Origin: CAVQYV01 sp963718295 [NCBI: uncultured Methylomirabilota bacterium]
GTDB lineage: Bacteria; Methylomirabilota; Methylomirabilia; CAVQYV01
Assembly: GCA_963718295.1 (NCBI GenBank)
Contig: CAVQYV010000006.1
Coordinates: 186,001-250,000, forward strand
Length of the DNA stretch: 64,000 nt
Direction of reading: 5' to 3'
The position numbers and the translations under genes were made by a program. This document shows positions 9,841 to 48,672 of this stretch, one piece after another (the stretch's first letter is position 1; each line of letters opens with the position of its first letter). A model generated the notes under the pieces. It made no database searches. It was not told where the DNA came from and saw only the letters and a list, made by a program, of their open reading frames with translations.

Positions 9841-10623
9841 TTGAACACATGGAAAAGACGGATCGCCGCGGCCTGGTTCGCCTTCGGGGTGTTGACCCTG
9901 TTGACGACCGTTCCTACGGACGCCCGGGCCCAGACGCCGGCGGTGGATCCGGCCGCTGTCCAGATATTGAAAGGGATGACCGATTTTATGGACGGACTGC
10001 AGCAGTTCAGCGTGACTGCGCAGATCGTCGTCGAGGAGATGCACGTTTCGGGGCACCGGGTTGATTACGACATGTCGGTGACTACAACCGTCAAGCGGCC
10101 GAACAAGATGCGCGCAGTGCGCACAGGCGAATTGACGAACCAGAGATTCTTCTATGACGGCAAGACCATGACGGCGTACGACCCGGATAAAAAGGTCTAT
10201 GCGACCGAGAAGGCGCCCGACACGGTTGAGAAGGTGATCACCTTCGCGCGCGAAACGGCCGGCGTTCTGCTCCCGGCCGCCGATCTGATCTACCGCAATG
10301 CCTTTCCGCTGATGATCCAGGATCTGACCCTGGCGACGGTGGTCGGCAAGGCGGTAGTAGGCGGCGTCAGGTGCGATCATCTGCTCTTCAGCCGCCCGGA
10401 CGTCGATTTCCAGGTCTGGGTTTCCGAAGGCAAGCAGCCATTCCCGCGCAAGTATGTCGTCACCGAAACGGCTACCCCCGAAAAGTTCGCCATCACCGCG
10501 TTCCTGAATAACTGGAACCTTGCCCCAGCCGTGGACGATGCCCAGTTCAAGTTCGTGCCACCCGGGGGGACTCAGGAGATCTCTTTCGCGCAATTCGAAA
10601 AAACCCGCGGAGACAGCCGCTGA
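9841..10623 (+). CDS. Exported DUF2092 protein, copy 1
   Basis: A 260-residue secreted protein that starts with TTG, chosen because GAAGGAGG sits at ideal distance and no better start exists. The signal peptide ends near DARA. The mature part matches the DUF2092 pattern: an early helix (QILKGMTDFMDGLQQFSV), then beta strands with KRPNKMRAV, FFYDGKTMTAYDPDKKVYAT and VDFQVWVSEGKQPFPRKYV. This fold resembles lipoprotein carriers of the LolA type, and a periplasmic lipid-handling role is only an inference. A paralogue lies at 58416-59252, also followed by a small glycine- or proline-rich protein, so the pair is a repeated cassette. Confidence 0.75.
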   Translation: MNTWKRRIAAAWFAFGVLTLLTTVPTDARAQTPAVDPAAVQILKGMTDFMDGLQQFSVTAQIVVEEMHVSGHRVDYDMSVTTTVKRPNKMRAVRTGELTNQRFFYDGKTMTAYDPDKKVYATEKAPDTVEKVITFARETAGVLLPAADLIYRNAFPLMIQDLTLATVVGKAVVGGVRCDHLLFSRPDVDFQVWVSEGKQPFPRKYVVTETATPEKFAITAFLNNWNLAPAVDDAQFKFVPPGGTQEISFAQFEKTRGDSR

Positions 10624-11076: not shown

Positions 11077-11155
11077 AAACATCGCGAACCTATTGAGCCA
11101 GGGATGAACATTTGAACGAGTGGCCGCACCATCAACCATAGAAGGGAGAAAGAAC

Positions 11156-11500
11156 ATGAGCAACTATCGATCCAACTGGCTGGCTACTGCAGCGCTTTTC
11201 ATGCTGACTATTGTTGTTATCAGTGCGATGGTCGCCGCGCTGCCCGGTACGTCGAACGCGCGGGATCCAGGAATCAACCAACCCGGTGCAGCGGGCAACG
11301 TTGGAGCGGATCCCGGAATCAACCAACCCGGTGCAGCGGGCAACGTTGGAGCGGATCCCGGAATCAACCAACCCGGTGCAGCGGGCAACGTTGGAGCGGA
11401 TCCCGGAATCAACCAACCCGGTGCAGCGGGCAACGTTGGAGCGGATCCAGGAATCAACCAACCCGGTGCAGCGGGAAATAGGAGAGGTGGCCGCCGCTAA
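11156..11500 (+). CDS. Small exported protein of 15-residue tandem repeats
   Basis: The 114-residue product has a signal peptide or N-terminal membrane anchor (residues 12-35) and then five units of DPGINQPGAAGNVGA, ending in a basic tail (NRRGGRR). AGGGAGAAAG precedes the ATG. I know of no family match; glycine/proline/asparagine repeats suggest a disordered surface or matrix peptide. The repeats are almost identical at DNA level, so they expanded recently or are kept uniform by recombination. Confidence 0.55.
   Translation: MSNYRSNWLATAALFMLTIVVISAMVAALPGTSNARDPGINQPGAAGNVGADPGINQPGAAGNVGADPGINQPGAAGNVGADPGINQPGAAGNVGADPGINQPGAAGNRRGGRR
11264..11482 (+). repeat. 45-bp tandem repeat, 4.9 units
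   Basis: Units begin at 11264, 11309, 11354, 11399 and 11444; the last is incomplete. Outer units read GATCCAGG and inner ones GATCCCGG, otherwise they are identical by eye. The repeat is in frame and encodes the 15-residue protein repeat. Copy number probably varies between strains. Confidence 0.9.
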
Positions 11501-12574: not shown

Positions 12575-14272
12575 ATGAAAGTCATTATCGTTGGCGGAGT
12601 GGCAGGCGGGGCGTCCTGTGCGGCGCGCCTGCGCAGGCTGGATGAAAACGCCGAGATCCTCATGGTGGAACGGGGGCCCTATGTTTCGTACGCGAACTGC
12701 GGTCTGCCCTACCACATCGGCGGCGTGATCGAAAAAGAGTCAAGCCTCCTCGTCGCGAGTGAAGCGATGTTCCGCGGCTGGTTCAAGATCGATGTGCGCA
12801 CGAACTGCGAGGCCGTCAAGATCTCGCCGGACAAGAAGACCATCGACCTGCGCAATGTAGCGACCGGCGAGGTGAAGACCGAGTCCTACGACAAACTCGT
12901 GCTGTCGCCCGGCGCGGCCTCCGTTCATCCGCCCTTGCCCGGGATTGACCTCCCGGGGATATTCCACGTCAGGACCGTGCCCGAGGCGAAGGCGATCCGC
13001 GATTGGCTCGAGCGAGGCACCTCCTTCCTCGCCGGGATGCACAAGTACTCCGGCTTCCAGACGGTAAGGCCCAAGACCCGCGCGGTGGTCGTCGGGGGCG
13101 GATTCATCGGCCTCGAGACCGCCGAGAACCTCGTCCATCGCAAGTTCGACGTGACCCTCGTCGAGATGCTCGACCAGGTCCTGGCGCCGCTCGATCGGGA
13201 AATGGCGCGCGTTGTAGAGGGCTACGTGGAGCGGAACGGTATCCGCCTGGCGCTCAATGACGGGGTGTCCGGGTTCAAGCAGGCCGAGAACGGATCGCTT
13301 GAAGTTCTCACGAAATCCGGCAAGGTCTATCCGGCCGACATCGTGATCCTCGCACTCGGGGTGAGACCGGAGACCGCGCTGGCCAAGTCAGCAGGTCTGA
13401 AGATCGGCGAACGCGGCGGGATTCGGGTTGACGAGTACATGCGCACGAGCAACCCGGACATCTTCGCCGTCGGAGACGCCGTGGAGGTCAAGGACTTTCT
13501 GACCGGAGAGTGGAGCCTGATCCCGCTCGCCGGGCCGGCGAACCGGCAGGGCAGGATCGCGGCCGACGTGATCGCCGGACGCGACTCCCGCTACCGCGGC
13601 ACCCAGGGCACCTCGATCATCGGACTCTTCGGTGCGGCGGCCGCCTGGACCGGCGTAAGTGAAAAGACGCTCATTCGGATCGGCGACAAGGATTTCGAGA
13701 AGATCTATTTTTACCCCAACTCCCACGCGGGGTACTACCCGGGAGCCAGGCCGATCGCGATGAAGGTCCTTTTCCGGAGATCCGACGGACGCCTCCTCGG
13801 CGCGCAGGCGCTCGGCCTGGATGGCGTGGACAAGCGGATCAGCGCTCTGGCCATGGCGATCCAGATGAAGGCGACGATCTACGACCTCGAGGAAGCAGAG
13901 CTGTGCTATGCGCCCCAGTTCGGAAGCGCGAAGGACCCCGTCAACTTCGCGGGGATGATCGCGGCCGATGTCCTGCGCGGCGACATGCCGGTCAATCACT
14001 GGGATGCGGTAGCAAAGGAGTTCCTCCTCGACGTGCGCGAGCCCGTGGAACTCGCCGTGGAAAATGTGCTGGGCGCGGTCAACATCCCGATCGGTCAGCT
14101 CCGCGCGCGACTCGGCGAGCTGCCGCGCGACCGCGAGATCAACGTCATCTGCCGTTCCGGCGGACGCGCATACTATGCAACGCGCATCCTTCTGCAGAAC
14201 GGGTTCAAGGCCCGGGTCATCCCCGGAGGCATGCTGTCGCGGGTTCACGCTACGACCTTCTGGGAGAGTTGA
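12575..14272 (+). CDS. CoA-disulfide reductase/rhodanese fusion (CoADR-RHD), copy 1
   Basis: A 565-residue cytosolic flavoprotein. FAD-binding GGVAGGASCAARLRRL is at the N-terminus; the single redox Cys is Cys42 in SYANCGLPYH; NAD(P)H-binding VVVGGGFIGLETAENL lies near 175; the second FAD motif is IFAVGDAVEV near 297. After the dimer domain, residues 460-565 form a rhodanese with the active-site loop CRSGGRAYYA. Fusions of this type reduce CoA disulfide or CoA persulfide and polysulfide. AGGAGGGAAGG precedes the ATG. It opens the first sulfur/redox block. A close paralogue is at 34083-35772, and rhodanese tail fragments occur at 15005, 24222 and 46477. Confidence 0.9.
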   Translation: MKVIIVGGVAGGASCAARLRRLDENAEILMVERGPYVSYANCGLPYHIGGVIEKESSLLVASEAMFRGWFKIDVRTNCEAVKISPDKKTIDLRNVATGEVKTESYDKLVLSPGAASVHPPLPGIDLPGIFHVRTVPEAKAIRDWLERGTSFLAGMHKYSGFQTVRPKTRAVVVGGGFIGLETAENLVHRKFDVTLVEMLDQVLAPLDREMARVVEGYVERNGIRLALNDGVSGFKQAENGSLEVLTKSGKVYPADIVILALGVRPETALAKSAGLKIGERGGIRVDEYMRTSNPDIFAVGDAVEVKDFLTGEWSLIPLAGPANRQGRIAADVIAGRDSRYRGTQGTSIIGLFGAAAAWTGVSEKTLIRIGDKDFEKIYFYPNSHAGYYPGARPIAMKVLFRRSDGRLLGAQALGLDGVDKRISALAMAIQMKATIYDLEEAELCYAPQFGSAKDPVNFAGMIAADVLRGDMPVNHWDAVAKEFLLDVREPVELAVENVLGAVNIPIGQLRARLGELPRDREINVICRSGGRAYYATRILLQNGFKARVIPGGMLSRVHATTFWES

Positions 14273-15099: not shown

Positions 15100-15717
15100 A
15101 TGGAAAAGTTTTCATTGATCTTCACAATATTCTTTATGCTCCTTGGGCCGGTTAAGATTATCCCGCCCTTCGCCGGGTTGACGCGAGGCGCGGATGTCCG
15201 GTTCAAGCGGGACGTGGCGATCCGGGGAGGGGTGATCGCAACAGTGCTCTGCGTTTTCGTGGCGCTGGCCGGGGGGACTCTCTTGGGCAAGTATCGCATT
15301 TCCCTTGACGCGGTGCGGATCGCGGGAGGATTGGTCCTGCTGATCGCCGCGCTGCAGGTGATGTTCCGAAAAGCGCAGTCGTCAAGCCCCCGCTCCGGCA
15401 GCCCCAACGCGATCCAACTCGCCGTCTCGCCGGTTGCCGTTCCGATCATCGTGCCTCATGCCGGCGTCGCCGCCATTTTGATCTTCACGATGCTTGCGCC
15501 GGAGTACCCTGGAATGATGAAGGCCGTAGCCATCTGCCTGGCGATCATGATGGCGCTCGATTTCCTGGTGATGTACTTCATCGACCAGGTCATGGAGACG
15601 CCGGGCCTGATGATCGTTCTCACGGTGCTCGGTTCCGTACTGGTATTTGTGCAGGTGGGTCTGGCCATACAGATGATCCTGAACGCTCTCAAGAGTTTGG
15701 GAGTCATCCAGTCCTAA
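15100..15717 (+). CDS. MarC family integral membrane protein, copy 1
   Basis: A 205-residue inner-membrane protein with six predicted helices. The start FTIFFMLLGPVKIIPPFAGLT, the middle RISLDAVRIAGGLVLLIAAL and the end ILNALKSLGVI are typical MarC features. The family was once linked to antibiotic resistance but its function is unsettled. CAGGAGGGG precedes the ATG. The second copy (46588-47204) is highly similar and carries a frameshift. In both places a rhodanese tail lies upstream and DszB-like sequence lies downstream. Confidence 0.88.
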   Translation: MEKFSLIFTIFFMLLGPVKIIPPFAGLTRGADVRFKRDVAIRGGVIATVLCVFVALAGGTLLGKYRISLDAVRIAGGLVLLIAALQVMFRKAQSSSPRSGSPNAIQLAVSPVAVPIIVPHAGVAAILIFTMLAPEYPGMMKAVAICLAIMMALDFLVMYFIDQVMETPGLMIVLTVLGSVLVFVQVGLAIQMILNALKSLGVIQS

Positions 15718-15727
15718 TTCGAATAGA

Positions 15728-15880
15728 CTTGCCTCAGAAAGTAGGTGAGCCGAGGTTAAGAAATGACTTCGCTTCGATGTTGTCAAATTGAGCAGGCTGG
15801 GGAAAGAACTGCTCGAGGAACGCTGGAAGAAGGTGACTGGGGACAAGCCTCCCGGGAAGACTGCGCTTCGGCTCGGGTAG
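15728..15880 (+). pseudogene. C-terminal remnant of a third DszB-like gene
   Basis: Read from about 15803, the sequence gives KELLEERWKKVTGDKPPGK and LRLG then TAG. This matches the tail of the desulfinase at 18461-19627 (KELIEEQWKK, VRLG). Further upstream, patches such as AAGAA-GACTTCG and CGATGT align with the region coding for IKNDFDV in the full genes, with internal deletions. It is a decayed copy lying between marC and the reductase operon, in the place where the second locus has an almost complete copy. Confidence 0.65.
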
Positions 15881-15975
15881 CCGGAGGGATGCACCGCCGA
15901 GGAGAAGAGGACGTTCACGAGTGGCCGGGTCGTGGTCGCTCCATTGGGTCTTCATGAACTGAAAGGAAGAGAAAG

Positions 15976-17277
15976 ATGAACACAGACAACCTGATCACCC
16001 CGGAAGGCCTGGCGGCAAGCCTCAAGATGGCCGCCGAGGGCATGAAGAAGAAGCCCGGCGTGATGAAGTCCACCGCGGGCTACATGGAACTGCTCAACAC
16101 GTACGTCGAGCGGATCACCACGGCGAAGGACCAGGGCAAGTTCGTCGTCACCCACGGCACCCAGCAACCTCTCGAGATCTACGAGGCGATGGACGTGGTG
16201 GGCGTCTTCAACGAGTTCTGGGGTGTCATTTCCGACGTCGTGATGTTGGAGTCCGTCCCCGAGGCCCTGAGCATCTCGCTGTCCACCGGCACGCCGAACG
16301 AGGTCTGCTCGTTCTTCCGCAACATGGACGGCCTGCTGCACGTGGGCTTGTGGCCCAAAACGGATGCCTTTGTCTATGCCACCTCTTCGTGCGACAACGT
16401 CAAGGCATTCCACACGCTGGGTCGGCGCTACGGCATCCCCGACTTCGGCCTGGAGCGGCCCTACCACCCCTTCACGCCGCGGGCGATGGAACATTGGCGC
16501 GAAGAGCACAAGCGCCTGATCGCCTTCCTGGAAGAGAAGACCGGCAAGAAGATGGACTACGACCGCCTGAAGGAGACGGTGCGCCTGTCCTACCGCCTCA
16601 CAGAACTCGCGCTCGAGCTCGACGACCTCGTGGCGCATGTCCCGACGCCGATGTCCGGCGAGTGCTTCGGCGGCGTGCTGCTGGCGCTGCGACTGATGTG
16701 CGGCACCCAGGAGGCGGTGGACTTCCTGGAAATGCTCAAAGCGGAGCTCGAGGAACGCACCGCCAACGGTGTCGGCGCCGTGCCGAACGAGCGTTTCCGG
16801 GTCATCTGGAGCAGCTTCACCCCGTTCTTTGACCCCAGCCTGATGGGCTTCATGCAGCAGAAGTACGGCGCCGTCTCGGTGACTGAGGTGCTGCAGCGCT
16901 GGCGCGGGCAGGCGAACTGGGTGCTCGATCCGGACGACCCGATCGGCAACCTGGCCTACCGGACCCAGCTCGCGCCCGGCAACTGCCAGTACTCGCCTTC
17001 GCCCGACTGGGCCGGGCAGGTCGTCGAGCAGGCCCGCAAGTTCAAGGCGGACGGGGCCATCTTCAACAACAACTGGGGCTGCAAGCAGGCCGCGGGCCTG
17101 GGCCCGATGGTGCGCGACGAGCTGATGCGCCAGTGCAAGGTGCCGACCTTGACGCTCAACGTCGACGTGATCGACGCCACCTTCACCAGCCGGGCCGAGA
17201 TCGAGGCCCAGCTGGACAGCTTCTTCGAGATGATCGCGTCGAGCCAGGCTTACCAGGAAAGGAGGGCCACAGCATGA
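15976..17277 (+). CDS. 2-hydroxyacyl-CoA dehydratase / benzoyl-CoA reductase-type subunit (BcrB/HgdB-like)
   Basis: The 433-residue protein belongs to the family that includes HgdA/HgdB and the catalytic BcrB/BcrC subunits of ATP-dependent benzoyl-CoA reductase. Visible markers are the N-terminal helix, ISDVVMLESVPEALS, candidate cluster cysteines in ATSSCDNVK, SGECFGG, GNCQYSP and NNNWGCKQ, and the late TLNVDVIDATF. Length fits the larger catalytic subunit. AGGAAGAG precedes the ATG. It overlaps the next gene by 4 bp and starts a six-kb operon with a second subunit, a DszB-like enzyme and two ATPases. The substrate cannot be read from sequence. No frameshifts occur in this operon. Confidence 0.85.
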   Translation: MNTDNLITPEGLAASLKMAAEGMKKKPGVMKSTAGYMELLNTYVERITTAKDQGKFVVTHGTQQPLEIYEAMDVVGVFNEFWGVISDVVMLESVPEALSISLSTGTPNEVCSFFRNMDGLLHVGLWPKTDAFVYATSSCDNVKAFHTLGRRYGIPDFGLERPYHPFTPRAMEHWREEHKRLIAFLEEKTGKKMDYDRLKETVRLSYRLTELALELDDLVAHVPTPMSGECFGGVLLALRLMCGTQEAVDFLEMLKAELEERTANGVGAVPNERFRVIWSSFTPFFDPSLMGFMQQKYGAVSVTEVLQRWRGQANWVLDPDDPIGNLAYRTQLAPGNCQYSPSPDWAGQVVEQARKFKADGAIFNNNWGCKQAAGLGPMVRDELMRQCKVPTLTLNVDVIDATFTSRAEIEAQLDSFFEMIASSQAYQERRATA

Positions 17278-18422
17278 ACGCGCCACTGCAAGCTCTGAAC
17301 GAAATGCAGAGACTCACCTCCCCGTTCCCGGAGAGCGTCACGATCAAGGAGTGGAAGGCCGCCGGCAAGAAGGTGCTTGGCTGGGTCAACCCCTACGTGC
17401 CCGAGGAGATCATCTACGCCGCCGGCATGCTGCCCTTCCAGGTCAGCGGCAACAACGAGCCGGTGCAGATGCAGGGTGCCGAGGCCTACATCCTCTCCAA
17501 CTCCTGCTCCTACATCCGCACCTGCTGGCAGCTGCAGCTCGACAAGAAGTACGGCTTCCTCGACGGCCTCGTCTCCTCGAGCATGTGCGACCAGGACAAG
17601 CGGCTGTACAGCGTGTGGGAGTACTACCAGAAGCTGCCGTTCATGGAAATCCTCTACGCGCCGCGCAAGCGCGACGAGGCGGCGGTTCAGCTGTACCTGG
17701 CCGACATCGAGGACTTCCGGGACCATCTCTCGCTGTTCGGCTTCAGGCGGATCCCGCAACGCGACCTGGCCGACGCGATCCTCGTCTACAACCGCGGACG
17801 CGAGCTCATGCGAAAGCTCTACGAGCTGCGTAAGCGCGATCGACCGCCGGTGACCGGGGCCGAAGCCCTGGAGGTGAGCAAGGCGGCCGCCCGCCTGCCA
17901 CGCGACCAGTTCAACGCGCTGATGGAGCAATTGCTCGACGAGATCGAGCGCGGCGGTCGCGAGATCAAGAAGTCCCGGCGCCTGATGGTCATCGGCAACG
18001 ACCTGCACAACGCCACCCAGATCGAGGCGCTCGAGGGGCTGGACGCGGTGGTGGTCGTGGATGAGATGAACTGCGGCATCCGCTACGCCTGGGGGCAGGT
18101 CGACACGCAGTTGCCGCCGATGGAGGCGCTGGCGCGCTATTACGTGCTGGGCCGCCCGGTCGACATGCACACCTGGAATTCCGACGGTCGGCTCGAGTTC
18201 ATCGGGGAGATGGTCGAGCAGTACAAGGTCGACGGCATCGTCTCCGAGATCGTGCGCTTTTGCACCTACAACGGCTGGGACAAGTGGGATCTCAAGAAGC
18301 AGATGGAAGCGCGCGGCGTCCCGATCCTGGACATCGACCTGGAGTACGGTCACCCGGCGGGGGCGCAGGTGAAGATCCGCGCCGAGGCGTTCATGGAGAT
18401 GCTCGAAAGCCGGGCCGTTTAG
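17274..18422 (+). CDS. Second 2-hydroxyacyl-CoA dehydratase / benzoyl-CoA reductase-type subunit (BcrC-like)
   Basis: A 382-residue protein, the smaller catalytic-type partner of the previous subunit. It shows KKVLGWVNPYVPEEIIYAAG near the start, then SNSCSYIRTC, SSSMCDQDKR and VRFCTYNGWDK, which give the cysteines expected to hold a 4Fe-4S or double-cubane cluster. Its ATG overlaps the preceding stop (ATGA), implying translational coupling and a fixed 1:1 ratio. In the family, two such subunits form the site where a low-potential electron is passed to an acyl-CoA ring or 2-hydroxyacyl-CoA. Confidence 0.85.
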   Translation: MNAPLQALNEMQRLTSPFPESVTIKEWKAAGKKVLGWVNPYVPEEIIYAAGMLPFQVSGNNEPVQMQGAEAYILSNSCSYIRTCWQLQLDKKYGFLDGLVSSSMCDQDKRLYSVWEYYQKLPFMEILYAPRKRDEAAVQLYLADIEDFRDHLSLFGFRRIPQRDLADAILVYNRGRELMRKLYELRKRDRPPVTGAEALEVSKAAARLPRDQFNALMEQLLDEIERGGREIKKSRRLMVIGNDLHNATQIEALEGLDAVVVVDEMNCGIRYAWGQVDTQLPPMEALARYYVLGRPVDMHTWNSDGRLEFIGEMVEQYKVDGIVSEIVRFCTYNGWDKWDLKKQMEARGVPILDIDLEYGHPAGAQVKIRAEAFMEMLESRAV

Positions 18423-18460
18423 CCCGGCGCGATTACCGATTACTGATTGGAGAATTAACT

Positions 18461-19627
18461 ATGAGCAAAGCAACTACAGCCGAGCAAACCAGGACGCTCA
18501 GCACTGTGCCGCTGAACTGGAAGGAAGTCTTCTACACCAACTGCGGCATGGTGTCGGCGAGCAACGTCGACCAGGAACTGGGCTGGTGCAAGACCGACTT
18601 CAAGGCGATCGGCGTCGATTACTCCTACTTCCGGAGCCGCCGCGAGAACGACTGGTACCCGCACTACATCCATAACCTCGACAACCTGATCCGCTTCGGT
18701 GGGCTCTACCCGCCGATCCACGTCGAGGCGGACATACGCCGCACGCGCCTGCTGGGTGCGACGCCGACCTACGAGGGCGGCTGCATGCTGGTGCGGGCCA
18801 AAGACCCCATCTACAAGATGAGCCACCTGAAGGGTAAGCGCATCGGCCTGTCCAAGAGCCTGAACACGCTGAAGAACGACTGGTGGCGCATCACCGAGCA
18901 CTACGGAATCCTCAACATGCTGATGCTGAACGACATGAGCATCGAGGACGTGGAGGTCGTCGAGTTTCCGTATGCGGACGACTGGTACAGCGACCCGAAG
19001 ATGCTCGAGCCGCTGGTCAGCGCGACCGACCTCTACATGGGTGCCATGGACCACAAGCGCAACCAGGCCTTCCGCCCGCTGGAGGCGGCGCTGCTGGCAG
19101 GCAAGGTCGACGCGATCTACACACACAGCAAGACCTGGCAGCACCTGCAGGAAGACACCGGCAAGATCGCGGCCATCGAGGACCTGTCGCGCTACCCGGA
19201 CTGGCGGCTGCAGGCCAACAACGAGCCCGCGGTCATCACCTGCAGCGACGTGATGGCCGAGCAGCACCCCGAACTGGTCGTCACCTTCCTCAAGGCGATG
19301 ATCAAGGTCGGGCGCTGGTCCAACGAGCACAAGCATGCCGCGGCCGCGATCCTCGATCGCCAGACCTTCTACCGCGACGTAGAGGATACGTACGAGGGCA
19401 TCAAGCACATCGACATGGTGCCGAGCCTGTCGCTGAAGAACCTGGCGCAGATCGAGATCGGCAAGGACTTCATGCTGAAGCACGGCTATATCAAGCGCGA
19501 CTTCGACGTACAGCAGTGGGCCGCACCGGAGTTCCTGGAGCAGGCAGCCAAGGAACTGATCGAGGAACAGTGGAAGAAAGCGACCGCGGCAAAGCTCCCC
19601 GAACCCACCGCAGTTCGGCTCGGATAG
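18461..19627 (+). CDS. DszB-like sulfinate desulfinase, copy 1
   Basis: The 388-residue protein has the periplasmic-binding-protein-like fold of DszB but no signal peptide, so it should be cytosolic. Compared from memory with Rhodococcus DszB, its catalytic residues are conserved: Cys28 in FYTNC (DszB Cys27 in YSNC), His68 and Arg78 (DszB His60 and Arg70, same 10-residue spacing), followed by FGG, then PP, RTRLLG and, at the end, QWAAPEFL. DszB cleaves aryl sulfinate to sulfite and the arene or phenol. It lies 38 bp after the reductase subunits and 14 bp before the activating ATPases, so it belongs to the same operon. The alternative is a cytosolic NMT1-like binding protein. Confidence 0.75.
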   Translation: MSKATTAEQTRTLSTVPLNWKEVFYTNCGMVSASNVDQELGWCKTDFKAIGVDYSYFRSRRENDWYPHYIHNLDNLIRFGGLYPPIHVEADIRRTRLLGATPTYEGGCMLVRAKDPIYKMSHLKGKRIGLSKSLNTLKNDWWRITEHYGILNMLMLNDMSIEDVEVVEFPYADDWYSDPKMLEPLVSATDLYMGAMDHKRNQAFRPLEAALLAGKVDAIYTHSKTWQHLQEDTGKIAAIEDLSRYPDWRLQANNEPAVITCSDVMAEQHPELVVTFLKAMIKVGRWSNEHKHAAAAILDRQTFYRDVEDTYEGIKHIDMVPSLSLKNLAQIEIGKDFMLKHGYIKRDFDVQQWAAPEFLEQAAKELIEEQWKKATAAKLPEPTAVRLG

Positions 19628-19641
19628 ACGGGGGGAAAACC

Positions 19642-20454
19642 ATGGCTGTCGTTGGAATTGACTTGGGATCGCAGTCCACCAAGGTCGTGATCCTGGAAGG
19701 CGACGTGATTGTCGGTGGCGCCTCGCTGCAGACCGGGGAATCGGCGGAGACCGAGGCCCGGATGGCGGTGCAGGAAGCGCTGCGGCAGACGGGCCTCAAG
19801 CGCGAGGACCTGAAGGCCGCGGTGGCGACCGGCACCCTCGCTGTGCCCGTCACCGCGGCTGTGAACATCGCGGCCCTGAAGCAACGCTCGGCGGCGAGTT
19901 GCATCGCCACGGGAGCCTACTTCCGCTTTCCCCAGGCGCGGACGGTCCTGTATGTCGGCGCCGACAGCTCGATGGCCGTCCGGCTGTCGGCCGATGGCCA
20001 GGTCGAGGACTCGGTGAGGAACGAGCGCTGCGCAGTGTCTTCGGGGGCGCTGCTGGACATCGTGAGCCGCATGCTGGAAATCCCGGTGGAGGAGATGGGC
20101 CCGATGTCGCTGCAGGCCACCGCCCCGGAGATCGTGTCCAGCCGGTGCGTGGTCTTCGCCGAGGGCGAGATCCTGTCCTTCATCCACAAGGACCCGCCGG
20201 TCTCCGTTCCAGATGTGCTCGCCGGCGTGAACCAGTGCATCGCCGACGGCCTGTGGGGAATGGTGCAGAAGGTGGGCGTGCCGTCCGAGCTGCTGCTGTG
20301 CGGCGGGGTCGCCAGAAATGTGGGCATCGTCAAGGCCATCGAAGCCCACCTCGGCAAAGCGGCACTGGTGCCTCCACAGCCGCAGTACGTGCGGGCACTG
20401 GGCGCGGCCCTGTTCGCCCGCCAGCTTCAGCACGAAGGCGGTGCGCCATGCTGA
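19642..20454 (+). CDS. BadF/BcrA-type activating ATPase, subunit 1
   Basis: A 270-residue ASKHA-fold ATPase. The phosphate-1 motif GIDLGSQSTKVVI and the adenosine motif LLLCGGVARNVG are present. Candidate ligands of the shared 4Fe-4S cluster are Cys in RNERCAVSSG and SSRCVVFAEGE. The loop after the first Cys is VSSGALL rather than the usual GGTGRF, so this is the more divergent of the pair, resembling the heteromeric BcrA/BcrD or BzdP/BzdQ situation. Such proteins spend two ATP per electron to drive electrons into the catalytic subunits. Confidence 0.87.
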   Translation: MAVVGIDLGSQSTKVVILEGDVIVGGASLQTGESAETEARMAVQEALRQTGLKREDLKAAVATGTLAVPVTAAVNIAALKQRSAASCIATGAYFRFPQARTVLYVGADSSMAVRLSADGQVEDSVRNERCAVSSGALLDIVSRMLEIPVEEMGPMSLQATAPEIVSSRCVVFAEGEILSFIHKDPPVSVPDVLAGVNQCIADGLWGMVQKVGVPSELLLCGGVARNVGIVKAIEAHLGKAALVPPQPQYVRALGAALFARQLQHEGGAPC

Positions 20455-21284
20455 CGATGGGAATCGATATCGGTTCGCGCAGTTCCAAGTGCGTCATCCT
20501 CGACGACGGGCAGTTGCTGACCTACGGCAGCATCGAGACCGGCCCCAATATCCTCAAGACAGCTCATGCGGTGGTGGAGGCAGCCGTCCACCGCCGCACT
20601 GGCTTATGGGGCGAGTACCGGATGCCGTTGCCCGACGTGAAAGTCGACCATCTGAAGATCCAGGACATGGCCTGCATCGTGTCGACGGGCTACGGGCGCG
20701 CCGTCGTGCCCTTCGCGCACCGCGCCATCACCGAGATCACCTGCCACTGCCGCGGCGCGCAGTGGTTTGTACCCGGGGTCTCCACCGTCCTCGACGTCGG
20801 CGGGCAGGACAGCAAGGGCATCCGGGTCGGCCCGAAGGGTGAGGTCGCCGACTTCGTGATGAACGACAAGTGCGCCGGCGGCACCGGTCGCTTCATGGAA
20901 ATCGTCGCGGAGGCCCTGCACGTCCCCCTGGACGAGATCGGTCCGCTGGCGCTGCAGAGCACGAAAGTCCTGCCGTTCAGCTCGACCTGCGCGGCCTTCG
21001 GCCGGGGGTCGGCGGTCACGATGCTCAAGGAAGGCGAGCGCAAGGAGGACATCCTGGCCGGGCTGCACGAGTCGATCGCCACGCGGGTCATGGCCCTGGT
21101 CAGGAAGGTCGGCATCGCGGACAAGTTCGTGATCTCCGGCGGCATCGGCAGGAATGTCGGGCTGGTGAGCAAGATCGAACAGAGGCTCGACGGGTTGAAG
21201 GTCACCCTGCCGCAGGAACCGATGATCGTCGGGGCCGTAGGGGCGGCCCTGTTCGCCCTCGACCGGGCCAAGAAACAAACCTAA
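20448..21284 (+). CDS. BadF/BcrD-type activating ATPase, subunit 2
   Basis: The 278-residue partner ATPase has canonical features: GIDIGSRSSKCVILD, the second motif VLDVGGQDSKGI, cluster cysteines in NDKCAGGTGRFMEI and SSTCAAFGRGS, and VISGGIGRNVGL. It overlaps the first ATPase by 7 bp. Two ATPases plus two catalytic-type subunits match the architecture of class I benzoyl-CoA reductase rather than the homodimeric activator of the dehydratases. The operon seems to end here. Confidence 0.9.
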   Translation: MLTMGIDIGSRSSKCVILDDGQLLTYGSIETGPNILKTAHAVVEAAVHRRTGLWGEYRMPLPDVKVDHLKIQDMACIVSTGYGRAVVPFAHRAITEITCHCRGAQWFVPGVSTVLDVGGQDSKGIRVGPKGEVADFVMNDKCAGGTGRFMEIVAEALHVPLDEIGPLALQSTKVLPFSSTCAAFGRGSAVTMLKEGERKEDILAGLHESIATRVMALVRKVGIADKFVISGGIGRNVGLVSKIEQRLDGLKVTLPQEPMIVGAVGAALFALDRAKKQT

Positions 21285-21440
21285 TGAAGGAATCAATAAA
21301 CTTCGGCTGGGGCAACCGGGAGGAACCTCGGGTGAAAAGGAGGAGATATTCAGGGGTAACGAATTAATAGGTGGCGAAGGAAGAATCTAAAATGAGAAAG
21401 GAGGGGATTTGCGACCATCCGATTCAATTTTCGTAAAGTG

Positions 21441-21535
21441 CATAACCAGGTTTGTCCAGGCGACCGGGTCTGGCTTTGAACAAATCGCCATCACCGCCGG
21501 TCCGGTGAGGCACGAAAACAAAAAGGAGAAAACAC
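21441..21535 (+). promoter_or_regulatory. Two-hairpin, kissing-loop leader element A (before cupin 1)
   Basis: Hairpin 1 (21456-21473) has arms CCAGGC/GTCTGG and loop GACCGG. Hairpin 2 (about 21487-21511) has arms GCC-A-TCACCG/CGGTGA-GGC and loop CCGGTC. The loops are perfect reverse complements, so they can kiss. It is preceded by the conserved CCAGGTTTGT and followed 20 bases later by the AAGGAGA ribosome site of cupin 1. The same arrangement occurs before the glycyl-radical enzyme and the second DszB-like gene. It does not match any riboswitch consensus I remember. Confidence 0.65.
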
Positions 21536-21934
21536 ATGCACAAGAAACTGACAGATATGCACCCAGTAGACGACTTCGTCACCCAAAACACCCCGGGCCT
21601 CAAGATCTGGGATGAGCGATGGGGCGGCATGCAGTGTGCCTACCACGTCTTTGCCCCGGGCACTGACTTCACAGACATTCTGAAGGGAAAGGGACTGGAG
21701 CACGATCTGTGCGGGGTTGAACACTGGGCTTACGTTTTGAAGGGCTCGGTGGAGGTCATTTACCTTGACGGGACCATTGAGATTTGCCGCGCTGGGGAAG
21801 TGTGCTTCTGGCCGGCTCCGCACAACTTCAAGTCGAAGGAAGGGGCCGAGATCATCCAGTTCAGCACCGATGGAGGGTTGGCTGCGCAAGGCAAGAGAAT
21901 CCAGGAGTTTGTCGCGAAACAGATGAAGAAGTAA
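21536..21934 (+). CDS. Small cupin-domain protein, copy 1
   Basis: A 132-residue single cupin. Motif 1 is partial (VEHWAYVLKG) and motif 2 is RAGEVCFWPAPHNF, so only some of the usual metal-binding His/Glu residues are kept. Some cupins of this size are sulfur dioxygenases or sensors, but this sequence does not decide a function. Its leader carries the kissing-loop element. A second cupin of the same family (41844-42230) sits in the other redox block. Confidence 0.7.
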   Translation: MHKKLTDMHPVDDFVTQNTPGLKIWDERWGGMQCAYHVFAPGTDFTDILKGKGLEHDLCGVEHWAYVLKGSVEVIYLDGTIEICRAGEVCFWPAPHNFKSKEGAEIIQFSTDGGLAAQGKRIQEFVAKQMKK

Positions 21935-22003
21935 TTGTTAATGCGCCCCGAACATTATGGCGCGGTGCTCCCGCGCCCTAATTCCCTAAAAGGAGGAAAC
22001 AAA

Positions 22004-22687
22004 ATGAAATTGAAAACAGGTGTGGATCCCACGAGCAGGATTAGCTTCAAGAACACCCGCGGCCTTCCCTTCCACGGGATGGGGGCCTTTGTCGGCATCG
22101 GCAAGACCCAGCGGGCACACGTCTACACGGCGGCATCGATCCCCGTCGACCCCGAGGCCTACAAGAAGATCGATCCCAAGAAACTGGCGGTCGAACTCGG
22201 CGTGGACATGTGCGCTGTCAACAGCGGACGCTTCTGGATGATGGACGAAATCGAGTTCGTCGTCGGCGACGTCCAGAACTTCCACGGTGTCGAGTTGCGC
22301 TGGGGCGGGGACATGACCGGGGCCGAGATGGTCTCCCAGATGCAGAACGCCTACGTGCCCTCGCTGATCCGGCGCAACTCGGTCTGGACGTTCAAGGCGG
22401 GCAAACCGGTGTTCCTGCTGCGCGAGCCGGGCGGCCCGGTCTGGGTCCTGCAGGAATATACCAAGGCGGTGGATCCGGGCCTGACCCCTGACAACCTCAA
22501 CGAGTTGGGCGGCAAGCTGAAGAACCTGCCGCAAGGCTGGAAGTTCGAAACCAAGCTGCTGACCGAGGACCTGGTGCTGGACACGGGTCGCGCCGGAAGC
22601 TGGGCAGCCATCATCCGCGACGATCTGCACTGCACCTACCAGGGCTGCGGCTACGGCAAGGACACCAGCGCCAACTATGTGCCGTAA
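22004..22687 (+). CDS. Conserved protein of unknown function
   Basis: A 228-residue soluble protein with no signal peptide and no membrane segment. Landmarks are FKNTRGLPFHGMGAFVGIG, KKLAVELGVDMCAVNSGRFW, FHGVELRWGGDM and a C-terminal block PQGWKFETKLLTEDLVLDTG that I have seen as a recurring motif in uncharacterised proteins of similar size. AAAAGGAGGAAAC gives a strong ribosome site. It is 69 bp after cupin 1 and is probably co-transcribed with it. I do not assign a reaction. Confidence 0.6.
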   Translation: MKLKTGVDPTSRISFKNTRGLPFHGMGAFVGIGKTQRAHVYTAASIPVDPEAYKKIDPKKLAVELGVDMCAVNSGRFWMMDEIEFVVGDVQNFHGVELRWGGDMTGAEMVSQMQNAYVPSLIRRNSVWTFKAGKPVFLLREPGGPVWVLQEYTKAVDPGLTPDNLNELGGKLKNLPQGWKFETKLLTEDLVLDTGRAGSWAAIIRDDLHCTYQGCGYGKDTSANYVP

Positions 22688-22842: not shown

Positions 22843-23484
22843 ATGATCATACGTTTGCTGCGAAACGTCCTTTGGCCCGCGGGTGTTGCCTTGCTCTTTC
22901 GCGGGCGGCCTCTTCACGGCCGCTCCGACCCTGCCGGGGCACAAACCGCGAAGCCCGCGGCCGCGGGTAGCCAGCTTCCCAAGGCGAAACAGACGACCCT
23001 CGGTCTCTATGTGACCGCCGCGCAGGCCTACGAAATGTGGAAAGCCTCACCAGACAAGGTCAAGGTCATCGACGTGCGGACTCCCGAGGAGTTCGCTTTC
23101 GTCGGCCACCCGGAGATGGCCTGGAACATACCGTTGGCCTTCGTGAGCTACCAGAGAAAGGGCGGCAAGTTCACGTACGCACCGCAAATGAACAAGGCTT
23201 TCGTCGCCCAGGTCAAGGAGATCGCCCAGCCGACCGACATCCTGCTGGTCACGTGCAGGTCCGGCGGCCGCGGCGCAATGGCCGTCAACCAGCTTGCCGC
23301 GGCCTGCTTCACGAAGGCGTACAACATCGTCGATGGAATCGAAGGAGACACGGTGGACGATCCCGAGAGTGTCTTTCACGGAAAGAGGATGAAGAACGGC
23401 TGGAAGAACTCGGCGCCCTATGTGTACAACGTCGATCCCGAGAAGATCATCATCGAAGAAGGCGCTTCCCAACAGATGAGGTGA
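22843..23484 (+). CDS. Exported rhodanese-domain protein
   Basis: The 213-residue product has an N-terminal hydrophobic start and a rhodanese domain with VIDVRTPEEFAFVGHPE and the active-site loop TCRSGGRGAMA. The Cys makes it a likely sulfur carrier or sulfurtransferase. The signal-peptide core is odd: between about 22893 and 22945 the +1 frame reads SFAGGLFTAAPTLPG, a much better hydrophobic core, so two compensating indels probably interrupt it. GAGGAG precedes the ATG. It follows the unknown protein and precedes the AhpD-like gene. Confidence 0.8.
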   Translation: MIIRLLRNVLWPAGVALLFRGRPLHGRSDPAGAQTAKPAAAGSQLPKAKQTTLGLYVTAAQAYEMWKASPDKVKVIDVRTPEEFAFVGHPEMAWNIPLAFVSYQRKGGKFTYAPQMNKAFVAQVKEIAQPTDILLVTCRSGGRGAMAVNQLAAACFTKAYNIVDGIEGDTVDDPESVFHGKRMKNGWKNSAPYVYNVDPEKIIIEEGASQQMR

Positions 23485-23583: not shown

Positions 23584-24225
23584 ATGAAGCGCACGCTGAC
23601 TCCAGACAACTTGTTCAGGACGGTCGCCAACTTCGTGACCTCGATCCCCGTTCTTGTCAGGGCGTTACGCAGCCCGAAGACCTCTGCTGCGCTGCGTGAG
23701 AAGGTGGTGCTCGGCGTGACCTCGATCAACGACTGCCGCTATTGCGAGTGGGGTCATACCCACTGGGCGATGGCCCACGGGGTGCCGCTGGAGGAGGTCA
23801 ACCAGATCCTCGGCCTTCAGATCGAGTCGCTGGAGGCAAAGAACCCGGCCGAAGCCGCGGCGATCCTGTTCGCTCAACACTACGCGGAGCAACTCGACCA
23901 GTTCGATCCGGAATCGATAGAGAACCTGCGCAAGTACTACAGCGACGTCCAGGTGACCGAAATCCTCGCCTACGTGCGCGCAATCACGCTCACCAACCTG
24001 AGCGGCAACACCGTGGACGCGTTTCTTGACCGCTTCCGCAGCCATGGCCAGCCCATCAGCTTCTTCCAAGGTGTGGTGGGTGCGGCCCTCTCTCCGGTGT
24101 TACTGACGGTGATCCTGCTGGCAAAGATCGAACGCAAGTTGGGTATAGCTGAGATGCGGTCCCGCTGGCACCGACCTCGCCAGGATGGCCCGCCGAACCC
24201 GGACCTTAGAGGAGACTCATCATGA
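23584..24225 (+). CDS. Carboxymuconolactone decarboxylase/AhpD-like protein
   Basis: A 213-residue helical protein with the AhpD motif in INDCRYCEWGHTHWA (CxxC followed by His), which in AhpD is the peroxidase-reducing thiol pair. A C-terminal hydrophobic segment (about 160-190) suggests membrane association. Family members reduce peroxides or act as small lyases; neither can be chosen here. The next frame starts at its stop codon (ATGA). Confidence 0.8.
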   Translation: MKRTLTPDNLFRTVANFVTSIPVLVRALRSPKTSAALREKVVLGVTSINDCRYCEWGHTHWAMAHGVPLEEVNQILGLQIESLEAKNPAEAAAILFAQHYAEQLDQFDPESIENLRKYYSDVQVTEILAYVRAITLTNLSGNTVDAFLDRFRSHGQPISFFQGVVGAALSPVLLTVILLAKIERKLGIAEMRSRWHRPRQDGPPNPDLRGDSS

Positions 24226-24428
24226 ATGCACCGCTGCCGGAGCTTTGCGCACGCCTGGGTGAACTCTCCCGCGACCTAGAGATCCATGTCATTTGCCGTT
24301 CCGGCCAGCGCGCTTGTTATGCGACGAGGATACTTTTTCAGAACGGATTCAAAGCCAAGAACGTATCGGCAGGGATGCTTTCCCTGGCGCACAATTACCT
24401 GCTTGATGCCAACAGGGAAGGGGATTGA
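24222..24428 (+). pseudogene. Isolated C-terminal half of a rhodanese domain
   Basis: The 68-residue frame matches the last part of the CoADR-rhodanese genes (PELCARLGELSRDLEIHVICRSGQRACYATRIL, cited here only as landmarks VICRSGQRACYA and LFQNGFKAKN). The active-site Cys is present but the first half of the fold is absent, so it is unlikely to be an enzyme. It overlaps the AhpD-like stop by 4 bp, as if trimmed to fit. The last residues diverge from the other copies. Confidence 0.65.
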
Positions 24429-25368: not shown

Positions 25369-25545
25369 ATGAATATCGAGCAATCCCGTCTCGAAGAAGC
25401 CCGAGCGACGAAAGCTCCCTGGAAGAAATGGGGACCTTACCTGAGCGAACGTCAGTGGGGGGAACCGTCCGTGAGGACTACAGCGAAAGCGGAGATGCCT
25501 GGAATTACTTCACCCACGACCAGGCCCGTTCGCGGGCCTACCGTA
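25369..25545 (+). pseudogene. GH63 glucosidase N-terminal fragment
   Basis: The first 60 codons match the start of the glucosidase at 52927: [25 protein letters not shown] against [24 protein letters not shown]. After a one-base insertion in the GGGGGG run it continues [27 protein letters not shown] and stops aligning. The break runs straight into the fourth copy of the two-hairpin element. Confidence 0.85.
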
Positions 25546-25546
25546 A

Positions 25547-25615
25547 AACAGGCTCATCGAGGCGGCCGGGACTGGCTGTTAAGAAACCGCGATCATCGCC
25601 GGTCTGGTGATGCGT
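25547..25615 (+). promoter_or_regulatory. Degenerate two-hairpin leader element D
   Basis: It keeps the order of the other three copies: ACAGGCTCATCGAGGC, loop GGCCGG, then hairpin 2 with loop CCGGTC (25599-25604). Stem 2 (ATCATCG/TGGTGAT) has G-U pairs where the other copies have G-C. Stem 1 is poorly paired. It stands before the small membrane protein at 25647. It is likely a decayed or diverged member. Confidence 0.5.
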
Positions 25616-35772: not shown

Positions 35773-35827
35773 AAGAATGAAATGCAATCTAGAAAGGGAA
35801 ATACCGATACATAAGCCGCATACGAAG

Positions 35828-35921
35828 TCAGGTCATCCAGGCGGCCGGGCCTGTCTTTAAGGAATCGCCATCACCGCCGGTCCGGTGATGCCAAACAACA
35901 AAGATAAAAGGAGAAAACAAA
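35828..35921 (+). promoter_or_regulatory. Two-hairpin, kissing-loop leader element B (before glycyl-radical gene)
   Basis: Hairpin 1 (35838-35853): arms CAGGC/GCCTG, loop GGCCGG. Hairpin 2 (35869-35890): arms CATCACCG/CGGTGATG, loop CCGGTC. The loops pair over six bases with one G-U. The G-U pair in stem 1 of element A is G-C here, a compensating change. TCAGGTCATC precedes hairpin 1; the AAAAGGAGA ribosome site follows hairpin 2. Confidence 0.65.
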
Positions 35922-41818: not shown

Positions 41819-41843
41819 ACAATCTAAACCAAAAGGAGATGAT

Positions 41844-42230
41844 ATGCGAACGCCGATGAAGGACCTGCCAGCCCACAAGAGCCCCTTCAGCGACAAAGTG
41901 GAGGGAGTTGAGGTTTTCTCCGAGGATTGGGGTGACATGACCTGTGGCCGCTACCTTTACCCTAAAGGAGTGGATTTCACGCCGTATTTCGTTGGACTGC
42001 CGGACGATTTGTGCCCGATTCCTCACTATGGGTACTGTCTAAAAGGCGCTTTTCATGTCCGCTACAAGGACGGAACGGAGGAAGTCGTGAGAGCTGGGGA
42101 CCTGTTCTACTTGCCCCCACCCCATACGTTTTGGATAGATGAAGATACCGAGATGATCATGTTCAGCCCGCTTAAACTGATGAGTGAGAGCGTGAAACTC
42201 GCACAGAGCAATCTGGGTTCCGAGAAGTGA
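41844..42230 (+). CDS. Small cupin-domain protein, copy 2
   Basis: A 128-residue cupin of the same family as that at 21536: FSEDWGDMTCGRYLYPKGVDF against WDERWGGMQCAYHVFAPGTDF, then PHYGYCLKGAFHVRYKDG and LFYLPPPHTFWI. Few of the standard metal ligands remain. AAAAGGAGATG precedes the ATG. It directly follows the iron-sulfur protein. Confidence 0.68.
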   Translation: MRTPMKDLPAHKSPFSDKVEGVEVFSEDWGDMTCGRYLYPKGVDFTPYFVGLPDDLCPIPHYGYCLKGAFHVRYKDGTEEVVRAGDLFYLPPPHTFWIDEDTEMIMFSPLKLMSESVKLAQSNLGSEK

Positions 42231-42249
42231 AAGCCTAGCCGGCACGAGC

Positions 42250-42303: not shown

Positions 42304-42322
42304 AGGAGGAGGTTAAAAGGCC

Positions 42323-43504: not shown

Positions 43505-43506
43505 CA

Positions 43507-43545: not shown

Positions 43546-43656
43546 ACAGCCCCGGTTGTGATAGGTAACAGGCTGGGCCAGCCAACCTATCGGCAGCCAA
43601 GACAACAGAAGACACGGAAGGCTGTGAAAGGTAGAAAAGAATGGAGGAGTAATGGT

Positions 43657-47363: not shown

Positions 47364-48610
47364 ATGGCTAACAAAGCAAACAAAAGTGGTGATGCGACAG
47401 CGTGTTCTCCGGGGGATCTCTCAAAGACACAGATTAAAGAGACAACGTTCAAAAATACGAAATTAAACACCGTACCGTTGAATTGGAAAGAGGTGTACTA
47501 CACCAATTGTCCACTCGTGTCCGCCAGCAACGTGGACCAGGAACTGGGCTGGACCCGGGAGGAGTACAAGAAGATCGGCGTGAAGTACGGTTTTCTCCGC
47601 TCCGTCCGTGAGAACGACTGGTACCCGCACTACATCCACAACCTCGACAACCTGATCCGCTTTGGCGGTTTATTCCCGCCCATCCACGTTCAAGCCGACA
47701 TCCGCCGGACCCGGCTCCTGGGGGTGACGCACGCACCACACGAAGGCGGCTGCATGATGGTGCGCTCCAGGGACGACATCTACCGGATGACCGACCTGAA
47801 AGGCAAGAAGATCGGCCTCTCGAAGAGCCTGAACACGATCAAGAACGACTGGTGGCGCATCCAGGAGGAACAGGGCATCGAGCTGATGCTCCGAATGAAC
47901 GGCATGACCCGTAAAGATGTCCAGATCGTGGAATTCCCCTACGCGGATGACTGGTACAACAATCCCAAGATGCTGGATCCCATGGATAATGCGTCTGAAT
48001 TGTGGCTTAAGCGCAACCACAAGTACGACCTGGCCTTCCGTCCGCTGGAGACTGCGCTGGAAAAGGGCGTCGTCGATGCGATCTATACCCAAAGCAAGCC
48101 CTTCCAGCACCTCCAGGAGGCGACCGGCAAGTTCAAGGCGATCGAGGACCTGTCCAGGTATCCGGACTGGACCCTGCAGGTGGCCAACATCCCCGCCGCC
48201 ATCACCTGCACCGATGTCATGGCCGAGAAGCACCCCGAGCTCGTCGTCACGTTCATGAAAGGCATGATCAAGGTGGGACGCTGGGCCAACGAGCACAAGC
48301 ACGCCGCCGCGGCGATCCTCGACAAGCAGACGTTCTACCTGGACGTCGAGGATACGTACGAGGGCATCAAGCACATCGACATGGTGCCCAACCTGTCGCC
48401 CCAGAACCTGGTCTCCGTCGAGATCGGCAAGGACTTCATGCTGAGCCACGGCTACATCAAGAACGACTTCGATGTGCAGAAGTGGGCGGCGCCGGAGTTC
48501 CTGGAGAAGGCCGCGAAAGAACTGCTCGAGGAACAGCTGGAAGAAAGGAGACCTCGGCAAAGCTTCCCGATACGACGAAGCTGCTTGAAGAGACCAAGCG
48601 GATCGGGTAG
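47364..48610 (+). CDS. DszB-like sulfinate desulfinase, copy 2, frameshifted at the C-terminus
   Basis: Strongly similar to copy 1, with a longer polar N-terminus (about 20 extra residues). The predicted catalytic set is intact: Cys in YYTNCPLVSAS, His in WYPHYIHN and Arg in LIRFGGLFPP at the same 10-residue spacing; RTRLLG and QKWAAPEFLEKA follow. The annotated frame would run to 48659, but near 48545 a one-base shift restores SAKLPDTTKLLEETKRIG and a stop at 48610, matching the copy 1 end. It has the kissing-loop leader and precedes a ferredoxin-nitroreductase. Confidence 0.75.
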
Positions 48611-48672
48611 CCGGGAGGAAGCTCGGCACAAGGTGGTCTCGGCAAGTAAGAGCAGCTGAAACCGCGTTGAGA

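Follow-up and report, generated by a model that had tools for sequence, protein, structure and literature searches.

DszB, the 2′-hydroxybiphenyl-2-sulfinate desulfinase (PDB 2de2-2de4), functions in the oxygen-requiring 4S pathway and has the DszA and DszC monooxygenases as its neighbors. The 2-hydroxyacyl-coenzyme A (CoA) dehydratase systems possess one activator gene, and the class I benzoyl-CoA reductases BzdNOPQ and MbdONPQ combine two HGD-D subunits with two different activases. The substrates that are named in PMC11971306 for the members of this ATP-dependent radical superfamily are CoA esters, a few small molecules and thiouridine monophosphate. Here we describe a five-gene operon, found in a 64,000-nucleotide (nt) stretch (58.4% GC; hereafter the window) of contig CAVQYV010000006.1 from an uncultured Methylomirabilota bacterium, in which a DszB-like gene is embedded between the genes for two HGD-D subunits and two activases. 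We tentatively interpret this locus, while doubting the interpretation slightly more than we trust it, as a horizontally carried operon for one linked process that joins ATP-driven radical chemistry to DszB-type C-S cleavage; if true, the operon would add organosulfur chemistry and a new substrate class to the radical superfamily.

The operon and its DszB-like protein

The operon occupies positions 15976-21284 of the plus strand and consists of five tightly packed open reading frames (ORFs), all open from start to stop and spaced by -4, 38, 14 and -7 nt. In order, these encode HGD_O, a BzdO/HadB-like HGD-D subunit of 433 amino acids (aa) expected to carry the catalytic [4Fe-4S] cluster (15976..17277; Pfam PF06050, 3.8e-57); HGD_N, a BzdN/HadC-like HGD-D subunit (17274..18422; 382 aa; PF06050, 1.6e-75); the DszB-like protein DSZ (18461..19627; 388 aa), assigned by phmmer (2de2, 3.3e-16), alignment and fold, with a weak Pfam match to NMT1 (2.4e-6); and the activases ACT1 (19642..20454; 270 aa) and ACT2 (20448..21284; 278 aa), both matching PF01869 (BcrAD_BadFG; 1.6e-39 and 1.1e-56, respectively). 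The HGD-D scores (194.8 and 255.3 vs. a gathering score of 28.4) and the BcrAD_BadFG scores (136.5 and 192.8 vs. 31.5) place both pairs in their superfamilies and, with the NCBIfam matches and the phmmer matches to family members, support at the superfamily level the ATP-dependent radical operon proposed in a preliminary description of this DNA. The gene order given there (two HGD-D subunits, a DszB-like protein, two BadF-type ATPases) agrees with the Pfam assignments and the open frames, and its span runs exactly from the first HGD-D start to the second activase stop. A broken operon is rejected because the five frames are open and the ratios of nonsynonymous to synonymous substitution rates (dN/dS, NG86) between the window and the Rhizobium copy described below are under 0.4 (HGD_O 0.365, HGD_N 0.19, DSZ 0.243, ACT1 0.143, ACT2 0.105). 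A scan of positions 15700-22100 for sigma-70 promoters and terminators yielded no more signals than shuffled sequences. The operon is unusual and real, a variant of a known superfamily arrangement.

The 'sulfinate desulfinase-like' label of the preliminary description withstands comparison by sequence, fold and active site. Among 177,635 distinct PDB sequences, the sole strong phmmer match of DSZ is DszB, represented by two versions of which 2de2 scores best (E 3.3e-16). The structure model of DSZ, obtained from 57 open sequences (alignment A1) with a mean predicted local distance difference test score (pLDDT) of 87.7, also retrieves DszB at the top in Foldseek (5e-19), ahead of SsuA (1.8e-13) and Thi5 (1.6e-11), and in VIA (Z 28.6, root-mean-square deviation 3.4 Å, 322 aligned residues), where SsuA comes second (Z 23.7). 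The active-site residues of DszB as listed in PMC12168087, Cys27, His60, Arg70 and Gly73, align with C28, H68, R78 and G81 of DSZ, the first three being those to which the preliminary description had pointed. Their counterparts are conserved in 67, 68, 68 and 68 of 68 open relatives, respectively, with the sole exception, at the Cys27 position, of L031, which has an odd N-terminus; the DSZ of the Rhizobium operon, like the operon copies in general, retains all four.

DSZ shares with the SsuA/TauA sulfonate-binding proteins the fold and a match to the SsuA-family model TIGR01728 of NCBIfam (56.6 bits, under the 163.5 cut-off). It differs from them in that no export signal is seen by a hydrophobicity rule (a hydrophobic N-terminus occurs in 1 of 59 rows, L041) and in that no ATP-binding cassette (ABC) ATPase motif lies within 6 kb of its relatives at any of the 64 placed loci or, by Pfam, in the window's operon; a plasmid relative that is 63% identical (L098) does adjoin ABC transporter genes. 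An ordinary SsuA/TauA import role is rejected for DSZ on the grounds of the missing signal and ABC partner, and the placement among solute-binding proteins that the preliminary description had considered is not borne out, TIGR01728 remaining below its cut-off and DszB being closer than SsuA. DSZ thus has in common with DszB the fold, the Cys/His/Arg/Gly site and the lack of a visible export signal but, unlike DszB, sits in an ATP-dependent radical-enzyme operon, and the Pfam scan of 40 window ORFs revealed no DszA/DszC-type monooxygenase.

Copies of the operon and distribution of the DszB-like family

All five genes, in identical order, are present on plasmid NZ_CP030763.1 of Rhizobium leguminosarum ATCC 14479, which is predicted to be conjugative. 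The identities to the window are 294/433 (68%) for HGD_O, 298/382 (78%) for HGD_N, 269/382 (70%) for DSZ, 237/270 (88%) for ACT1 and 249/278 (90%) for ACT2. At the DNA level the activase pair is 86.0% identical (1,635 nt) and the HGD-HGD-DSZ part 76.5% (3,594 nt); the operon shared by the window and Rhizobium is a mosaic. In the Rhizobium annotation, the first two genes are labeled as 2-hydroxyacyl-CoA dehydratase family proteins, the third as an ABC substrate-binding protein and the last two as activases. Next on the 3′ side come a symporter, a pair of rhodaneses, a sulfate permease, DUF4239, DUF2092 and a glucosidase; one of the rhodaneses, DUF2092 and the glucosidase also have relatives in the window. 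Because the same five-gene set is found on the plasmid of a legume-nodule bacterium, the DSZ pairing looks like a real travelling unit, and the Rhizobium copy opens it to direct tests in a harmless host that can be cultured.

The first three genes also occur in order in a Desulfobacteraceae metagenome-assembled genome (MAG), G002 (locus L089; 297/433, 300/382 and 254/382 identical residues relative to the window), so that the HGD-HGD-DSZ order is seen in 3/3 copies, the shared proteins being 64-85% identical. The linkage of HGD and DSZ is rare. Close HGD relatives were detected in 1 of 70 genomes carrying DSZ and in 1 of 297 and 1 of 291 further genomes, in all three cases G002. With a looser HGD_O limit, 4 of the 297 genomes matched, three of them at 30-31% identity. 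In three other groups no close HGD was found (0/347, 0/148 and 0/321), these searches having no positive control of their own, although G002 was recovered in the searches of 297 and 291 genomes. The 70 genomes cover 70 of the 74 DSZ loci introduced below, without L009 (which shares its isolate name with L008), L071 (which shares its MAG name with L069), L072 and L074. Relatives of HGD_N were found in 25 of 72,556 plasmid records, one of them at 60-80%, and a search of viral contigs with HGD_N returned no relative. The combination of genes was not encountered in a literature search of titles and abstract openings.

The preliminary description had named conserved operons without the DszB-like gene as evidence against its proposal. 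DSZ is next but one to HGD_O in 2/2 full-length close relatives (>65%) outside the window; a more distant HGD operon from the same phylum (L090) has the order HGD-HGD-ACT-ACT and no DSZ. Its call for other genomes with this five-gene order is answered by the Rhizobium plasmid and, for the first three genes, by G002. Wide generality of the linkage is disfavored by four Sinorhizobium medicae plasmids (among the 72,556 records) that carry the HGD_O front piece alone (aa 9-96). In the one inspected, L099 (pSymA), this front lies at 10001-10262 in two pieces and different frames beside DUF2092, and there is no DSZ within its 20 kb.

Most DSZ relatives stand outside the operon, in a widely transferred, sulfur-rich gene set. 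The scan of genome contigs gave 74 loci, with best-segment identities of 63-75% in 72 of them (53% in L070 and 49% in L074), in archaea, Pseudomonadota, Bacteroidota, Actinomycetota, Chloroflexota, Verrucomicrobiota, a cyanobacterium and other hosts; plasmid relatives are found in 86 of the 72,556 records, four of these at 60-80%. The DSZ tree requires 25 phylum-label changes against a possible minimum of 12, and this, together with the plasmid copies, makes horizontal transfer of the family very likely; part of the apparent transfer may stem from errors in MAG binning. The alignments and trees exclude 17 DSZ stretches, located in 10 loci, that are short or broken, some of them truncated at the end of a contig; of the 69 remaining rows, L057, with an open end, was omitted from the first tree and the residue alignment, and the second tree omitted L031 and eight further rows, mostly near-duplicates. 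Relatives of window genes that recur in the 74 loci include CoA-disulfide reductase (27 loci), rhodanese (21), a sigma-54 regulator (16), DUF202 (8), MarC (7), Fer4-nitroreductase (7), glycyl radical enzyme (6) and ABM (5). Other clusters that recur, for each of which a single representative was named by Pfam, are the sulfate-permease family (26), the sodium/bile-acid symporter family (11), sulfatase (6) and enoyl-CoA hydratase (6). On the best-matching plasmids the family is annotated just as 'ABC transporter substrate-binding protein'; given this binding-protein annotation and the presence of 72 of 74 loci at 63-75% identity in many phyla, the label may be wrong and hide a common sulfur enzyme. 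A sigma-54 promoter before the DSZ genes is rejected, its motif being found in none of 69 upstream stretches. As a separate observation, Tateyamaria pelophila (L034) has three DSZ copies in one 16-kb locus, with Fer4-nitroreductase among them.

Besides the operon copy, a stand-alone DSZ is present in the window and in G002, the two stand-alone proteins being 89% identical; that of the window is DSZ copy 2 (47364..48659, plus strand), a DszB-like gene for 431 aa that is 72.7% identical to DSZ over aa 3-364. The two stand-alone proteins group with L012 in the first tree (support 87/86) and not in the second. The operon copies of DSZ have end branches of 0.65, 0.65 and 0.50, compared to a median of 0.15, and depart from the other rows at two glutamines conserved in 66/66 of these: Gln145 is T, T and G, and Gln222 is H, Q and G, in the window, Rhizobium and the MAG, respectively. 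The long branches and the changed Gln145 would fit an altered substrate of the operon DSZ. The operon is also flanked by the debris of related genes. Upstream of HGD_O lies a relic (15773..15888, plus strand) of the tail of another DSZ-like gene, comprising its last ~40 codons and the trailer (tblastn, aa 348-388, 49%, E 6e-5), of which 99 nt are 80.8% identical to the DSZ tail of the L089 operon; at the equivalent place in Rhizobium there is an HGD_N tail (57 nt, 91%). Self-derived tails beside the operons would fit a history of tandem copies and deletions.

The radical enzyme and the proposed linked process

In phmmer comparisons, HGD_O is closer to BzdO (9.9e-18) than to HadB (1.3e-7), and HGD_N is closer to BzdN (1.2e-40) than to HadC (5.1e-27), a ranking that speaks against a dehydratase lean. 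The HGD_O model (pLDDT 86.1) shows a near tie in VIA between HadB and BzdO (Z 37.6 and 36.6), followed by MbdO (34.3) and DCCP (31.7). The HGD_O cluster cysteines C111, C139 and C369 are invariant in 16 rows (alignment A2), and T62 and E80, retained in 3/3 copies, align with HadB Ser37 and Glu55 (Thr replaces Ser). In the account given in PMC11971306, the double-cubane cluster of BzdN is held by Cys36/73/100/263/293/327 and the [4Fe-4S]-water cluster of BzdO by Cys95/128/380, with Glu65 and His131. Three of these six double-cubane cysteines are found in HGD_N in 3/3 copies (C78, C105 and C330, equivalent to BzdN 73, 100 and 327), the other positions being occupied by N39, N/D266 and V296, and no copy of HGD_O has a histidine at 139-143 that would correspond to His131, in a loop that is loosely aligned. 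The NCBIfam equivalog cut-offs for benzoyl-CoA reductase are all missed (BzdO 69.1/448.6, BzdN 144.9/453.8 and BzdQ 202.1/380.2 bits), as are those for HadB and HadC (58/750 and 136.8/700 bits). The best NCBIfam match of HGD_N is NF040772, the double-cubane cluster protein (183.6 bits, under its cut-off of 350). Both activases match MbdQ and HadI (7.5e-45 and 2.9e-44 for ACT1; 2.5e-66 and 1e-55 for ACT2) and share 34% identity; ACT2 has canonical motifs and cluster cysteines C142/C181, and ACT1 keeps the cluster cysteines C130/C169 with a deviating second phosphate motif (VGADSS).

By the cut-offs tested, the HGD core is outside both families. Its residues lean toward the 2-hydroxyacyl-CoA dehydratases, and its two-activase layout is of the benzoyl-CoA reductase style. 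The class I benzoyl-CoA reductase plan of the preliminary description holds for the composition, two HGD-D subunits with two different activases as in BzdNOPQ and MbdONPQ, but not for the residues and the equivalog cut-offs, and a plain benzoyl-CoA reductase operon is rejected on these two tests, the additional DSZ being a further difference. Given the missed reductase cut-offs, the 3/6 cysteines, the missing histidine and the HAD-type Glu80, the core could be dehydratase-like. With (R)-2-hydroxyisocaproyl-CoA dehydratase (HadBC and HadI) it shares three cluster cysteines per subunit, T62/E80 and the top model match; unlike that system, it has two activases instead of one and an extra DSZ gene, and scores far below the HadB and HadC cut-offs. 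The double-cubane cluster protein DCCP/YjiM, linked to HGD_N through NF040772, differs in that the present core has two dissimilar subunits, incomplete double-cubane cysteines and a score under the cut-off.

A functional link between DSZ and the radical enzyme is likely. Judging from the respective families, the ACT1/ACT2 pair would use ATP, through a shared iron-sulfur cluster, to push single electrons of very low potential into HGD_N/HGD_O, the electrons reaching HGD_O through HGD_N, and the [4Fe-4S] site of this pair would perform radical chemistry of the dehydratase or benzoyl-CoA reductase kind. DSZ would act in the cytoplasm as an enzyme whose Cys/His/Arg site cleaves a sulfinate C-S bond, freeing sulfite, in a step immediately before or after the radical one, and the freed sulfite or a persulfide could be handled by the rhodaneses and the CoA-disulfide reductase of the same gene set. 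A more specific version, which we regard as improbable, is that HGD/ACT reduces a sulfonate (R-SO3-) to the sulfinate at a water-bound [4Fe-4S] site, with DSZ then freeing sulfite, in an oxygen-independent process carried by plasmids into soil and nodule bacteria, the stand-alone DSZ family, several members of which have the leader described below, being the parent pool. The sulfonate-to-sulfinate step would, on chemical reasoning, be the counterpart of hydroxyl removal from 2-hydroxyacyl-CoA.

Several observations weigh against such a linked process. The identity of DSZ to DszB is only ~25%, and the position of DszB Q65 is not conserved, being L in 46, Q in 12 and M in 10 of 68 rows. After DSZ the G002 contig continues for 291 nt, in which no activase is visible, and the best ACT2 relative elsewhere in G002 is just 42% identical. 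HGD or ACT accompanies DSZ in 0/74 loci, in a scan that missed the operon copy of G002, and therefore the DSZ family does not need the reductase. Long branches are not confined to the operon copies, stand-alone proteins reaching 0.92 (L061) and 0.51 (L033). In the best tree the three operon DSZ are not monophyletic, monophyly not being rejected (approximately unbiased test, p-AU 0.31), and between Rhizobium and the MAG the DSZ proteins are the least alike (245/382 vs. 338/433 for HGD_O and 326/382 for HGD_N); given the lack of monophyly and this lowest identity, DSZ may have entered the operon by replacement on more than one occasion.

The strongest competitor is a CoA-ester pathway, on balance unlikely, in which HGD/ACT, as a dehydratase or reductase, takes a 2-hydroxyacyl-CoA or aryl-CoA as its substrate and a sulfinated intermediate of the pathway loses sulfite through DSZ. 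The heterodimeric relatives BzdNO and HAD act on CoA esters according to PMC11971306, HGD_O is most like HadB and BzdO by fold, and the enoyl-CoA hydratase cluster recurs at 6/74 DSZ loci, but neither a CoA ligase nor a CoA transferase nor an enoyl-CoA hydratase is present in the 40 window ORFs scanned with Pfam. It is considerably less probable that DSZ has a binding or sensing role in the cytoplasm, as a non-enzymatic relative of SsuA and DszB that delivers a sulfonate to the radical enzyme: this would accord with the shared SsuA fold, the subthreshold SsuA-family match and the faster change of the operon copies, and is opposed by the four active-site residues kept in these same copies, the lack of a transporter partner at the 64 placed loci and the clearly nearer position of DszB by sequence and fold. 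That the genes were brought together by chance, through shuffling in a mobile island rich in genes, and travel together without shared function appears very unlikely. Duplicated and broken pieces abound in the region, DSZ relatives adjoin many different genes, the operon DSZ may have been replaced, and three copies of the linkage were found in all in this analysis; chance is, however, hard to reconcile with the HGD-HGD-DSZ order kept in every copy at 64-85% identity, with dN/dS below 0.4, and with the position of DSZ between HGD_N and ACT1 and not at the edge.

Leader element and surrounding genes

A two-hairpin element of ~67 nt, present in many phyla, lies a few dozen nt before the start codons of DSZ and of other genes of the island and is a candidate structured RNA or shared binding site. 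In the window it precedes the cupin gene directly downstream of the operon (21449..21512, plus strand), the ORF at 25647 (25554-25613), the pieces of a glycyl radical enzyme gene (35829-35894) and DSZ copy 2 (47272-47337), and it recurs in L003, L005, L007, L009, L010, L011, L013, L015, L021, L029, L042, L048, L050, L059 and other loci. A 23-nt seed with at most 5 mismatches gave 24 matches in 1.15 Mb, including four minus-strand, 5-mismatch matches taken as chance, vs. a mean of 0.33 in three shuffled sets. In the stems, 10 of 14 pairs are changed on both sides, a value reached in 0/500 shuffles, a control that does not correct for the relatedness of the rows; RNAalifold alone recovers the second hairpin only. 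Pairing of the two hairpins in a kissing loop is possible in 87.8% of cells, with covariation that is reached by 46/500 shuffles and is not clearly above them. Run against 79 sources, the 26-row model gave 30 matches at E<=0.5, the 26 input rows themselves plus four additional ones (3e-7, 0.0012, 0.15 and 0.41), with none in L089, in L097 or before HGD_O of the window; weak look-alikes upstream of the Rhizobium HGD_O and DSZ were seen by eye only. Among 19 genomes chosen for DSZ, most of them also for the leader, 17 carry 1-4 copies (150 candidates scored per genome). Rfam returned no match over the whole window at gathering scores and none on 47200-47370 at E<=5.

Upstream of the operon, the relic is adjoined by a MarC-family membrane protein (15100..15717, plus strand; PF01914, 1e-16), a second MarC (46572-47204; 3.9e-13) preceding DSZ copy 2, and a CoA-disulfide reductase with a rhodanese domain lies at 12575..14272 (plus strand; TIGR03385, 2.5e-131, below its cut-off), with a second copy (79% identical) at 34083-35780. 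In addition to these two open copies, relics of the 3′ end of this gene are found at 24222-24392 and 46474-46539 (67% and 73% protein identity, and 81% and 92% DNA identity to the 34083-35780 copy, respectively). Downstream, on the plus strand, follow the cupin (21536..21934; PF07883, 1.9e-4, below its cut-off), a 227-aa protein without a family match (22004..22687), a relative of which occurs near DSZ in L056 only (1/74 loci), and a rhodanese-like protein (22843..23484; PF00581, 3.2e-9) with a 55% identical counterpart downstream of the Rhizobium operon. The glycyl radical enzyme gene at 35922-38342 is represented by seven matched stretches in three frames, 71-93% identical to an open 811-aa relative in L015, and open relatives with the glycine-radical domain exist. 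The relative of the Rhizobium island glucosidase (52957-55657) is likewise in five pieces and three frames, with a second small fragment at 25378-25544. Central-carbon genes (PFK, MetK, two glucose-dehydrogenase-like genes, transaldolase and PGI) are numerous at 38448-58214, a stretch that we would liken to a mobile stress or low-oxygen gene set. Finally, the ORF at 11120-11500 contains a tandem protein repeat (11264-11479) of 15-aa units starting DPGINQPGAAGN.

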